From the NCBI RefSeq assembly GCF_000953825.1, contig NZ_BBUL01000093.1:124001-188000 (forward strand): a stretch of DNA of 64,000 nt. Direction: 5' to 3'. This DNA is from Cellvibrio sp. OA-2007 (GTDB lineage Bacteria; Pseudomonadota; Gammaproteobacteria; Pseudomonadales; Cellvibrionaceae). Under the pieces are notes generated by a model. That model was given only the letters and a program-made list of their open reading frames with translations, was not told the DNA's origin and made no database searches. Of this stretch, positions 58,214 through 63,248 are shown piece by piece. Within the stretch, counting starts at the first letter, position 1, and the number at the start of each line of letters is the position of its first letter. The position numbers and the translations under genes were made by a program.

Positions 58214-58729
58214 CTAATCAGAACTGGATTTACCTTTACCACGCCAGTCTTGATATTTTTTATGTACACCGCGCGTGAAGGATTGGGAATAATCTTCAAG
58301 GAAGTCTACTCCCACTAATACGACAATCACGACCAAGGATAATTTGATCGCCACCAGGTTGTAACCTATCGCAATCACCACACCAATCGACGCCAACATC
58401 CAAATGGTCGCTGCCGAGGTTACCCCCAATACAAAACCATCGCGCGCCAACATAACACCAGCGCCCAAAAAGCCAATGCCGGTAATCACCTGACCGATAA
58501 TGCGCGAGGGGTCGGTTACCACCTTTTCCGGGCCGGAAAAATGAGCCGAGGCAAATAGCGATGCAGCGATAAAAATATAGGTGCCGAGGGTGATGAGGGA
58601 GGAGGTGCGAATACCGACGGGTTTGCCACGCAGCTGCCGCTCAATTCCGATAATACTGCCGCACAACAAGGCAGTGCCAATCGCACTCCAATCAAACGGA
58701 GTGACCGACAAGATTACATCTAGATCCAT
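58214..58729 (-). CDS. MgtC/SapB family membrane protein
   Basis: The 171-residue protein shows the MgtC/SapB pattern: LLCGSIIGIERQLRGKPVGI with the conserved GxERQ, RTSSLITLGTYIF, GIGFLGAGVML and VTSAATIWMLASIGV. It has about five membrane spans. In pathogens MgtC inhibits ATP synthase and supports growth at low magnesium; environmental members are less understood. It starts 22 bp after the UbiH-UbiI gene on the same strand and may be the last member of the ygfB-pepP-ubi unit. Confidence 0.88.
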   Translation of the reverse strand: MDLDVILSVTPFDWSAIGTALLCGSIIGIERQLRGKPVGIRTSSLITLGTYIFIAASLFASAHFSGPEKVVTDPSRIIGQVITGIGFLGAGVMLARDGFVLGVTSAATIWMLASIGVVIAIGYNLVAIKLSLVVIVVLVGVDFLEDYSQSFTRGVHKKYQDWRGKGKSSSD

Positions 58730-58750: not shown

Positions 58751-61282
58751 TCAGGAAACGCCCAGCGCGGTATTGATGATGATTTTTTTAATAGCCGCTA
58801 CTGAGTTTAGCTGGCGCATGCCGGTATTGCGCAGCCAATTTACGGCCAGACTGCGATTGCCAAACAAGCGTTTAAAACCTTCCATTGCTGACATCATGCC
58901 CAAATTACCCGCCAAGCGCTGACGCTGGTAACGGCGCAGAATGGAATAATCGGCCAGTGGGATGCCGCGCAGCAATGCGCGCTCAATTTCCTGCGCAAGC
59001 GCGATCACATCTAACAAACCTAAATTGACACCCTGCCCGGCCAAGGGATGAATATTGTGCGCAGCATCACCCACCAATGCGATTCCCGGTTGAATATAGG
59101 TCGTCGCGTGGCGCTGGCGCAAAGGAATGGCATAGCGCCTATCGCAGTAGATAACCTTGCCAAGACGCGCTTCAAATGCAGCGGTGAGCCGCGCGCAAAA
59201 CGTTTCATCATCCAAGGCCATCAACTCTGCAGCTAATGCATCTTCTGCCGACCAAACAATTGAACAACTGTGCGCATCGCCCTGCTGTTGCAGCGGCAAA
59301 AATGCCAGCGGCCCCGTGTGCATAAACCGCTGCCACGCAGTAAATTCGTGCGGAAGCTCGGTGCGCACGGTGGTGATAATTGCCTGCTGGCCATAGTCCC
59401 ATTCGCGGGTGGCAAATTCAGCCAATTCGCGTACTTTGGAGTGCGCGCCGTCTGCGGCAATTAACAGCGCCGCGGTAATTTCATTGCCATTAGAAAGTTG
59501 CACCCGCGTGCGCACCGCGCCGTCTTGTGACGAAATAATCTGCGTGACCGCAACAGGCTGCAGCAGAAAAATATTGTTATGCTGCGCCATACGTTCACGC
59601 AGTTGCTTCACAATCACCGAGTTTTCCACAATGTGACCGAGATGAGATTGCTGCACCTCAGCGCAATCAAATTCAATCGCGGCGGTGCCCTCACCGTCCC
59701 ATACTTTCATTTCGCGATAGGCGCAAGCGCGCTGTGCGACAATTTCGTCCCAACAGCCAATATCGGTAAATAATGTTTGCGATGCATGGGTGAGCGCAAC
59801 CACCCGCGGATCAAACTGCTCGCCGCTAAAGTGTTGTACATCACCACTTGCTTCTATCACAGCGATGCGCAAATGTTGCGCCGCATCTGTTTGTGCAATG
59901 GCGCACGCAAGTGCGGCACCCACCAAACCGGCGCCGACGATAATTACATCGTAATCCAGGTTATTTTGTTGCTCAGCCGGTTCATTACTTGCAACTGATT
60001 CACCATTGTAAGCCGCTAATTTTTCGTCCGAAACTTCATCTAACAGCCAGCGAAACCCGCGGCCAGCGGTGCCCATGGTCTGGGCGATAAATTGATTTTT
60101 TATCAGCGGAATAGATTCAAGGCTTAATAACCCGAGATGACGCATAGCAATCAACGGCAGTTGATCGCTGGAAAACAAACGCACTAACTTATCGCTAAAT
60201 TCAATAGTGAGTTGCTGATCGAATGATTGTTTGTGCAGATAGGATTGCAACACGGCCAAATCGCCGTAGGATTTATTTTTTTCAGTCGCCTCGCGCAGGG
60301 TTTCTACCAAGCCAACGCAATCGCGCAGCGCCAAATTAAACCCCTGACCGGCAACCGGATGCAAAAAATGCGCAGCATTGCCGAGCAATACCACATGCGA
60401 GCGCACTTGCTCTTCAGCTAAAACTAACTGCAAGGGATAGGCAAAACGTTTGGCCACGCGATTAAAACGCCCTACCCGAAAACCAAATTGCGCCTGCAAT
60501 TGTGCGAGAAAATCCGCATCGTTTAACGCGAGAGTTTCATCGGCTTGCGCGGCAGGCAAAGTCCACACCAGCGCCGATATTTGCGCATGGCTGGATTCAC
60601 CCAGAGGCAAAAGCGCAACCGGGCCATCGGCCGTAAAACGCTCATAAGCCACACCTTGATGGGGCTCGGAAAATTCCACATTAGTGATAATCGCTGTCTG
60701 CCCATAGTCACGCACTTGCGTGCCTATGCCCAACGCCTTGCGCAAGGGTGAATCGCCACCGTCGGCAATCACGGCAAGCGTTGTGCTGATGGTAAATTCT
60801 TGCGCATCGGTTTTTACATTGAGCAGTGCGCCATCCTGTTGCGGCAACAATTGGGTTACGCTTGATGAAGCAAAACACTGAATATTTTTTTGCGCTTGCA
60901 CATGGCCGAGTAACACTTTTCCCAGCCACGCATTTTCAACCACATAACCGACCGCCGCGATATTATTTTCTGCAGCGTCAATCACACCGCCAAGAAAATG
61001 CCCGCGATCCGACACATGCACCTGCGCAATCGGTGTAATGTGTTGCTGCAGTTTTTCCCACAAACCCAACTCGCGCAAAATAGCCGCCGTACCGTAAGAA
61101 AGCGCAGTAGAGCGCGCATCAAAACTTGGCTGAAAATGAATATCATCGGCGCGCGCAAAGGGCTGCGCTTCAATTAACGCAATGCGCAATTGAGGCTGAC
61201 TGGCAGCAAGCAAACTGGCGAGACTCGTGCCCACCATGCCGCCGCCGATAATGGCGATATCAAATTCGAGTAGGTGCGACAT
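58751..61282 (-). CDS. Fused UbiH-UbiI ubiquinone FAD-monooxygenase
   Basis: One 843-residue frame contains two complete flavin monooxygenases that are separate genes in E. coli (ubiH, ubiI/visC). Module 1 (about 1-410) has FDIAIIGGGMVGTSLASLLA, VIADGGDSPLRKALG and LLGNAAHFLHPVAGQGFNLA; the GN variant of the GD motif fits UbiH. Module 2 (about 442-843) has YDVIIVGAGLVGAALACAIA, LIAADGAHSKVRELA and LVGDAAHNIHPLAGQGVNLG, fitting UbiI. The linker (about 412-440) is Ala/Glu/Asn-rich with no internal start or stop. UbiH hydroxylates C1 and UbiI C5 of the ubiquinone ring. It follows pepP, as ubiH does in E. coli. Confidence 0.9.
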   Translation of the reverse strand: MSHLLEFDIAIIGGGMVGTSLASLLAASQPQLRIALIEAQPFARADDIHFQPSFDARSTALSYGTAAILRELGLWEKLQQHITPIAQVHVSDRGHFLGGVIDAAENNIAAVGYVVENAWLGKVLLGHVQAQKNIQCFASSSVTQLLPQQDGALLNVKTDAQEFTISTTLAVIADGGDSPLRKALGIGTQVRDYGQTAIITNVEFSEPHQGVAYERFTADGPVALLPLGESSHAQISALVWTLPAAQADETLALNDADFLAQLQAQFGFRVGRFNRVAKRFAYPLQLVLAEEQVRSHVVLLGNAAHFLHPVAGQGFNLALRDCVGLVETLREATEKNKSYGDLAVLQSYLHKQSFDQQLTIEFSDKLVRLFSSDQLPLIAMRHLGLLSLESIPLIKNQFIAQTMGTAGRGFRWLLDEVSDEKLAAYNGESVASNEPAEQQNNLDYDVIIVGAGLVGAALACAIAQTDAAQHLRIAVIEASGDVQHFSGEQFDPRVVALTHASQTLFTDIGCWDEIVAQRACAYREMKVWDGEGTAAIEFDCAEVQQSHLGHIVENSVIVKQLRERMAQHNNIFLLQPVAVTQIISSQDGAVRTRVQLSNGNEITAALLIAADGAHSKVRELAEFATREWDYGQQAIITTVRTELPHEFTAWQRFMHTGPLAFLPLQQQGDAHSCSIVWSAEDALAAELMALDDETFCARLTAAFEARLGKVIYCDRRYAIPLRQRHATTYIQPGIALVGDAAHNIHPLAGQGVNLGLLDVIALAQEIERALLRGIPLADYSILRRYQRQRLAGNLGMMSAMEGFKRLFGNRSLAVNWLRNTGMRQLNSVAAIKKIIINTALGVS

Positions 61283-61301: not shown

Positions 61302-62615
61302 TTAACTGGCCATCAACGCTTCAATGTCGGCAATGGTTTTGGGAACGTCTTTGGTGAGGACTTCGTTGCCGTCTTTGGTGATGACGACGTCGTCTTCGAT
61401 GCGAATGCCGATGCCGCGCCATTTTTTGGCGACGCGTTCGTTGTCGGGCGCGACGTAAATGCCCGGCTCTACGGTCATGACCATGCCGGGTTCGAGTACA
61501 CGCCATTCGCCGCCGACTTTGTAATCACCAACATCGTGTACATCAATACCGAGCCAGTGACCGGCGCGATGCATATAAAATTCTTTGTAGGCTTCGCTTT
61601 TAATTAATTCGTTTACATCGCCTTCGAGCAGGCCGATTTTTACCAGACCTTGGGTGATCACACGCACGGTTGCTTCGTGGGGATCGTTCCAGTGTTTGCC
61701 CGGTTTACATTCGGCGATGGCTTCAAGTTGGGCTTGCAAACAAATCTCGTAGAGGGCTTTTTGTTCGGGCGAAAATTTTCCATTAACGGGAAAGGTGCGG
61801 GTGATATCTGCCGCGTAATAATCCAATTCACAACCGGCATCGATTAAAACCAAATCGCCATTTTTGAGCGGCGCGGAGTTTTCAATGTAATGCAAAATGC
61901 AGCCATTTTTACCGCCGCCGACAATGGTGTTGTACGCCGGAAAACGCGCGCCACTCATGTGGAATTCATGCAGAATTTCTGCTTCGAGCTGATATTCCAT
62001 CACACCCGCTTTGCTCGCTTTCATGGCGCGCACATGGGCGCGGGCAGAAATTTCGCCCGCCTCTTTCATTACCCGCAACTCGGCAGCGCTTTTAAACAAA
62101 CGCTGCTCATTGAGAAAGTGGCTTAAATCCAAAAACTCGCCCGGTGGCGTTGCACCAGAGCGCACTTTGGCACGGATGGTGTTGACCCAATCCATGACGT
62201 GTTTATCGAATTCATTATCTTTACCCATGGAGTAGTAAACACGCTGCTTACCTTCGAGTAAGCCGGGTAAAATTTCATCTATATCATCGATAGGAAATGC
62301 ATCGTCCGCTTCAAATTCACTGCAGGCGCCTTCTGGACCTGCGCGATAGCCATCCCAAATTTCCCGCTCACGATTGCGCTCGCGCACAAACAACACATAT
62401 TCACCGTGCTCGCGGCCAGGAATTAATACCAGCACTGCTTGCGGCTCTTCAAAACCCGAGAGGTATAAAAAATCGCTGTTTTGACGGTAGTGATATTCGG
62501 TATCGCGGCTGCGAGTGCGCTCAGGGGCGGCGGGCACTATGGCGATGGAGTTAGGCTCCATTTGTGCCATTAAGGCTTTGCGGCGGCGGGCAAATTCGGC
62601 TTTGGATATTCTCAT
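61302..62615 (-). CDS. pepP: Xaa-Pro aminopeptidase P
   Basis: From ATG 62615 (MRISKAEFARRRKALM) the 437-residue enzyme has the creatinase-like N-terminal domain and a pita-bread metallopeptidase core. The metal ligands appear in LIDAGCELDYYAADITRTFP (two Asp), in MHRAGHWLGIDVHDVG (His), in MVMTVEPGIY (Glu) and in RGIGIRIEDDVVI (Glu). It releases N-terminal residues ahead of proline. The gene lies between ygfB and the fused ubi gene in the conserved order ygfB-pepP-ubiH. Confidence 0.94.
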   Translation of the reverse strand: MRISKAEFARRRKALMAQMEPNSIAIVPAAPERTRSRDTEYHYRQNSDFLYLSGFEEPQAVLVLIPGREHGEYVLFVRERNREREIWDGYRAGPEGACSEFEADDAFPIDDIDEILPGLLEGKQRVYYSMGKDNEFDKHVMDWVNTIRAKVRSGATPPGEFLDLSHFLNEQRLFKSAAELRVMKEAGEISARAHVRAMKASKAGVMEYQLEAEILHEFHMSGARFPAYNTIVGGGKNGCILHYIENSAPLKNGDLVLIDAGCELDYYAADITRTFPVNGKFSPEQKALYEICLQAQLEAIAECKPGKHWNDPHEATVRVITQGLVKIGLLEGDVNELIKSEAYKEFYMHRAGHWLGIDVHDVGDYKVGGEWRVLEPGMVMTVEPGIYVAPDNERVAKKWRGIGIRIEDDVVITKDGNEVLTKDVPKTIADIEALMAS

Positions 62616-62633
62616 GTAGGCACTCGCAAACAA

Positions 62634-63248
62634 TTAATGTAATTGATTAGACCCAGGTGCCATGCTCGCAGGATTTACCCCTTCGGCATGCTCGGCTGAA
62701 AATTCAAAATAGAGTGAGTTAACCACCACCCGCACATATTCGGTTACCTCCATGTAGTCCGCTTCTGCACTTGGCTCGTCTTCTTCATCATCGGCCTGGA
62801 TTTGTACGATGTTGGCCATGTCTTGGAGCATTTCTTCAAATTCTTCGTTGATCACTCGCTTACCTTGATGATCAACACTGCCAAAACCGGTGAGGAAACC
62901 GTGGCACCACTCACTCAGCGCGCGCACGCGATCATTGAGCGTGTTGTCATCATCGGGCAACATCAATTTCAAACTGAATTGGCCGCGCAGTTGATCGCTC
63001 GTGGTGTGATACAAACGACTCAGGGCGATGCGCACTTGCTCGTCGGGTGCGGCGATAAAATCGAGAAATTCAACCGCCTCCAACAGCCAGTTGATTTCAC
63101 TCAAGGTCGCACCACCCGCCAATTTACCGCACAGCAAACCGTGCAGTTCAGAAGGGCTATTGAGGGTGCCGAGGGGTGCCAACAGGTTGGCGAGATCATC
63201 AAAATTCAGGGGGGCGAGCAGTTGTTCGGTGGAAGTGGTATCGGTCAT
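62634..63248 (-). CDS. ygfB: YgfB/UPF0149 family protein
   Basis: The 204-residue protein has the UPF0149 pattern: NSPSELHGLLCGKLAGG near residue 30, LSEWCHGFLTGFGSVD in the middle, and a C-terminal acidic stretch before EVTEYVRVVVNSLYFEF. Its biochemical role is poorly known; in pseudomonads it is reported to modulate AmpDh3-type regulation, which I have not checked. It heads the leftward pepP-ubi unit and is divergent from zapA. Confidence 0.9.
   Translation of the reverse strand: MTDTTSTEQLLAPLNFDDLANLLAPLGTLNSPSELHGLLCGKLAGGATLSEINWLLEAVEFLDFIAAPDEQVRIALSRLYHTTSDQLRGQFSLKLMLPDDDNTLNDRVRALSEWCHGFLTGFGSVDHQGKRVINEEFEEMLQDMANIVQIQADDEEDEPSAEADYMEVTEYVRVVVNSLYFEFSAEHAEGVNPASMAPGSNQLH

Follow-up and report, generated by a model that had tools for sequence, protein, structure and literature searches.

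A single gene of Cellvibrio sp. OA-2007 encodes a genuine, natural fusion of UbiH and a UbiI-type hydroxylase, as judged from sequence comparisons, and very probably provides two working enzymes for hydroxylation of the ubiquinone (coenzyme Q) ring in one polypeptide. The architecture appears to be new; the component enzymes were already known. The gene occupies positions 58751-61282 on the minus strand of the window (the whole stretch of DNA analyzed, 64,000 nucleotides). It is a single open reading frame with an ATG start, 843 codons, a stop codon, and no internal stops; frame 1 of the plus strand contains many stops. The preliminary description of this DNA gave no strand for the fusion. Its reading of two complete, distinct hydroxylases in one 843-residue frame was confirmed by the frame, the profile scores, the motifs, and Foldseek, and the linker of approximately 30 residues that it placed between them comprises about 31 residues (Table 1).

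Table 1. The fused gene and its neighbors in the window
Feature	Residues	Positions	Strand	Description
UbiH half	1-412	60047..61282	(-)	2-octaprenyl-6-methoxyphenol hydroxylase, C1
Linker	413-443	59954..60046	(-)	Predicted disordered; near-neutral; in frame in 12/12 fused genomes
UbiI-type half	444-843 + stop	58751..59953	(-)	2-octaprenylphenol hydroxylase, C5, by synteny
pepP, Xaa-Pro aminopeptidase		61302..62633	(-)	Upstream; Peptidase_M24 and AMP_N; same order in E. coli
ygfB, UPF0149		62634..63248	(-)	Upstream; UPF0149 domain; same order in E. coli
MgtC-family gene		58214-58729	Same as fusion	Downstream

Two hydroxylase halves and their assignment

Residues 1-413 passed the curated cut-offs of two UbiH profiles, scoring 446.5 bits on NF004356 (cut-off, 384) and 418.7 bits on TIGR01984 (cut-off, 392.2). 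Foldseek matched this half to the Acinetobacter UbiH structure 7mwa (TM-score by target, 0.86). In a 73-row tree, one branch (100/100) split the H rows from the I rows, E. coli UbiI and UbiF lying with the latter, and the N half fell among the 36 H rows, which include E. coli UbiH. The sequence data thus support the UbiH identity of the N half well.

The C half (residues 437-843) passed TIGR01988, the UbiH/UbiF/VisC/COQ6 subfamily profile, with 425.3 bits (cut-off, 224.65), and remained below every UbiI and UbiF equivalog cut-off. The best score was 447.8 on NF004318 (cut-off, 653), followed by the UbiI models NF006461 (360.5 versus 633) and NF005949 (343.7 versus 620) and the UbiF models NF005951 (302.8 versus 590) and NF006460 (272.6 versus 598). 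The 654.2 bits of the whole protein on NF004318 are the sum of both halves and not a genuine pass. Our guess is that the UbiI equivalog models are narrow. The top Foldseek match of the C half was E. coli UbiI (4k22; TM-score by target, 0.91), and 4n9x and p-hydroxybenzoate hydroxylases were also among the Foldseek matches. In the tree, the C halves were on the UbiI/UbiF side, with E. coli UbiI and UbiF, which pair with each other (95/83), beside them on long branches; UbiI and UbiF were thus not resolved from one another in this tree.

The preliminary description ascribed to each half its own dinucleotide site and DG and GD/GN motifs. Indeed, GGGMVG, ADG, and GNAAH in the N half and GAGLVG, ADG, and GDAAH in the C half aligned with their counterparts in E. 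coli UbiH, UbiI, and UbiF. With GxGxxG, DG, and GD/GN motifs and the corresponding fold in each, both halves are class A flavoprotein monooxygenases.

In E. coli, pepP, ubiH (b2907), and ubiI (b2906) are adjacent, separate genes, with a gap of 22 bases between ubiH and ubiI, and the same operon was reported for gammaproteobacteria (PMC7641849). The fused gene had been said to occupy the position of E. coli ubiH, and ygfB and pepP are upstream in both organisms. The adjacency of ubiH and ubiI in E. coli was absent from that account. The C half follows pepP-ubiH, in the same order as E. coli pepP-ubiH-ubiI. Furthermore, Coq7, which was reported to replace UbiF in C6 hydroxylation elsewhere (PMC5069965), is present in 21/21 Cellvibrio genomes, so that a C6 role for the C half would be redundant. 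Because it is placed after ubiH and Coq7 is available for C6, the C half is likely to be UbiI, the C5 hydroxylase. Of the two identities given in the preliminary description, that of UbiH was therefore upheld by profile cut-offs, while that of UbiI is likely from synteny and Coq7, its equivalog cut-offs having been missed.

Separate ubiH and ubiI genes elsewhere, which would have spoken against the fusion, were not found in the source genome (4,595,379 bases in 97 contigs; completeness rated 100%) by protein and TIGR01988 profile searches. The protein query matched itself and one distant place with 24% identity, and the profile detected both halves and, at 77.3 bits and thus below the cut-off, that distant locus, an FMO. 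Since Coq7 covers C6 and no spare copy was found, C1 and C5 hydroxylation are left to the fusion. A UbiK-type protein was found in the source genome.

In comparisons of the source gene with other fused genes, dN/dS was 0.06-0.12 for the H half (nine pairs; the tenth was saturated) and 0.05-0.11 for the I half (ten pairs). The median pN/pS over 55 pairs from 11 genomes (G015 was left out since its halves disagree) was 0.20 for the H half, 0.21 for the I half, and 0.84 for the linker. These values indicate strong purifying selection on both halves. The scores of the C half below the equivalog cut-offs could suggest that only one half is active, with the other kept as a structural or regulatory relic. 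We regard this as very improbable, because purifying selection is equal on both halves, the motifs are intact in both, and no other gene for the missing step was found in the source genome.

Distribution and origin of the fused gene

Inspection of the junctions revealed the fusion in 12 of 21 Cellvibrio genomes (G000, G001, G002, G003, G005, G006, G007, G009, G014, contig C124 of G015, G017 on a partial contig, and G019); Cellvibrio mixtus subsp. mixtus J3-8 (L035) has the fused gene. Seven of the 21 have separate genes (G004, G008, G011, G012, G013, G018, and G020), G018 being scored from the genus search by a TGA within the UbiH end, and G016 gave no match. In G010 (L072, G010:C66), the junction is interrupted by two N in the assembly, beside a palindrome also found in the linker of G005; this break is probably an assembly gap rather than a split gene. 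The draft G015 (6% contamination) carries a separate pair on contig C1 besides the fused copy on C124.

One sequencing error, such as a missed stop or a frameshift, can join adjacent genes, and the broken junction of G010 might seem to point to such an artefact, though it lies at the two N. However, the same junction is open in 12 assemblies, four of which are single-contig (G002, G005, G007, and G014), and the linkers differ widely among the 12. The stop or frameshift in the linker that the preliminary description had named as a refutation is absent from all 12 assemblies with the fused gene. Recurrence of the open junction across 12 genomes excludes chance and refutes the artefact, the probability of which we consider negligible.

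Fusions with long linkers, suggested by open frames of 925-940 aa in G012, G015-C1, and G020, were rejected since reading of the junctions revealed separate genes. In G011, G012, G015-C1, and G020 (L063, L064, L067, and L068), a short ORF is located between the separate ubiH and ubiI. That of G012 is DUF3144, and the other three are similar by eye only. The position of this short gene between ubiH and ubiI may point to a connection with ubiquinone synthesis.

Beyond the genus, overlapping samples of the family (144 genomes, genus included), order (390), class (369), and phylum (398) were searched with thresholds of 1e-30, 1e-150, 1e-140, and 1e-120, respectively. In the family sample outside the genus, every whole-length match among the matches listed has at least one internal stop, and the same was observed outside the genus in 29/29 listed whole-length matches for the order, 18/18 for the class, and 13/13 for the phylum; in these three samples, the top one or two candidates per genome were scored, so that fusions carrying long inserts could escape. 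None of the 77 fetched loci with both halves (two genomes counted twice) is a fusion. Junction reading also revealed separate genes in the family candidates G112 and G138 (open frames of 911-945 aa) and in G202, G307, G384, G421, and G487 of the phylum sample (values 978-989). The search for homologues with both halves, proposed earlier together with a survey of the family, thus detected fusions in 12/21 Cellvibrio genomes and none outside the genus among the matches listed. No description of a natural UbiH-UbiI fusion was found in titles and abstract openings, which leaves its absence in print unproven, and the words "fusion," "fused," and "Cellvibrio" are absent from the main text of PMC5069965. 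The fusion sequences were already public.

Besides the genus, the trees sampled 11 other genomes of the family, and coverage beyond the family was sparse; one alignment (A2) was dropped because single UbiH proteins had been placed on the UbiI half. In the 73-row tree, the fused rows and G010 formed one clade for both the H half (100/99) and the I half (97/79). In a concatenated tree, from which G015 was left out because its halves disagree and in which G010 belonged to neither group, 11 fused and 18 separate rows were divided by one change, with support of 100/99 and in 100% of 200 bootstrap trees. These data are best explained by a single origin of the fusion within Cellvibrio. In the fused gene on contig C124 of G015 (L007:1252-3780), the H half groups with G019 and the I half with G014, due to either recombination within this gene or chimeric assembly of the draft contig.

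Since ubiH and ubiI are neighbors in E. coli, fusion is an easy step, a merger of adjacent operon genes. Unfused ubiH and ubiI of Cellvibrio overlap by 4 bases (G008 and G013) or 17 bases (G004). Probably, ubiI came into frame through a minor change close to the ubiH stop in an ancestral ygfB-pepP-ubiH-ubiI operon, and much of the linker would then be derived from the UbiH tail and the UbiI leader.

The linker and the retention of the frame

In the fused genes, the linker is 27-32 aa long, and 78% of its residues are D, E, N, Q, K, R, S, T, G, P, or A. Its pLDDT in an AlphaFold2 model is about 30. An exposed, predicted disordered, and unconserved linker would be compatible with a cut there after synthesis, yielding two ordinary enzymes, so that the fusion would set their ratio only. 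This is improbable in our judgment, since the linkers share no conserved stretch that could be a cleavage motif.

The linker is near-neutral yet stop-free in 12/12 fused genomes. When an unconstrained linker was simulated on the scaled I-half tree, a rough model, under nine settings, 0/4000 runs per setting remained open in all 12 tips. Selection thus maintains the linker frame; it may act on the fusion itself or reflect the lack of another start for UbiI. In the source gene, the in-frame ATG, GTG, or TTG codons nearest to the start of the UbiI half lie 40 codons before and 10 codons after it, with none between these two. In several other fused genes, start codons occur in frame within or close to the linker, such as the ATG at codon -16 in G007, and no clear ribosome site was seen by eye at these codons.

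A serious rival explanation, which concerns why the fusion was kept and not what it is, is neutral retention: the fusion would work no better than separate enzymes and, UbiI having lost its own start, would be hard to split again. We give it close to an even chance. In line with it, the fused genes form one clade with no clear reversal, the linker is near-neutral, the linker of the source gene has no spare start, and sister species live with separate genes. Against it, possible starts in the linkers of several fused relatives would have allowed re-splitting, yet 0/12 are split; this point is weak, as ribosome sites are not evident there.

The linker of G005 (L005; G005:C1:1299149-1299168) contains a perfect palindrome, ATTCCCGC-N4-GCGGGAAT, read as DSRVRGN, and variant or degraded forms are present in the linkers of G001, G007, and G019. 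With up to 2 mismatches allowed in its 18-base core, the palindrome is absent from the 64-kb window, and exact copies are rare (1-2 in 8/21 genus genomes). These counts do not support an abundant repeat family. The palindrome does not account for the fusion.

The fused enzymes and the Ubi metabolon

The AlphaFold2 model (mean pLDDT, 75.7; pTM, 0.52) contained two folded domains and a linker. It showed no docking between the halves, at this pTM and with an alignment of 12 rows (7 fusions and 5 single UbiH proteins), of which only the 7 fusions cover the C half. The sequence features suggest that the fused gene provides two enzymes working side by side, probably two independent FAD hydroxylases, both active and tethered by a flexible linker in one polypeptide. 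One chain would fix a 1:1 supply and hold UbiH and UbiI close within the Ubi complex, with UbiG taking the step between theirs. As modeled, the flexible 31-residue linker is compatible with many placements.

The proposed route of the intermediate is UbiI, UbiG, UbiH, UbiE, UbiF, and again UbiG (PMC10863985), and we propose that Coq7 takes the place of UbiF on it in Cellvibrio. As UbiG acts between UbiI and UbiH, we do not expect direct passage from active site to active site. Any gain would lie in equal supply and in closeness inside the complex; both the placement in the metabolon and a kinetic gain from proximity are conjectural. It is possible, if rather doubtful, that the fusion serves as the covalent core of the Cellvibrio Ubi metabolon, that the intermediate stays in the particle from UbiI through UbiG to UbiH, and that separate halves would be an incomplete substitute.

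The Cellvibrio fusion and E. coli UbiH (b2907) and UbiI (b2906) are alike in enzyme types, order, operon context, and motifs. However, E. coli has two proteins and uses UbiF for C6, whereas the source genome has one polypeptide and Coq7. UbiH and UbiI are also members of the E. coli Ubi metabolon (the UbiE-K complex), but their association there is non-covalent, while in Cellvibrio two members are one chain. An engineered UbiG-UbiE fusion in Rhodobacter sphaeroides was said to have relieved a bottleneck (Lu et al. 2015, as cited in the review PMC8854274). It likewise joins two ubiquinone enzymes, but it is man-made and consists of methyltransferases, not hydroxylases. UbiL of Rhodospirillum rubrum was reported to cover C1 and C5 with one polypeptide (PMC5069965); it does so with a single active site of broad regioselectivity, in contrast to the two dedicated active sites of the Cellvibrio fusion.

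The structure of the Ubi metabolon was called poorly defined (PMC10863985). A fusion with a selected frame provides independent evidence that close placement of UbiH and UbiI in equal number is possible, and the polypeptide of approximately 92 kDa is a natural handle for purification and structural analysis of the Ubi complex. With fused genes in some species and separate genes in others, Cellvibrio is a natural experiment on the value of covalent joining.
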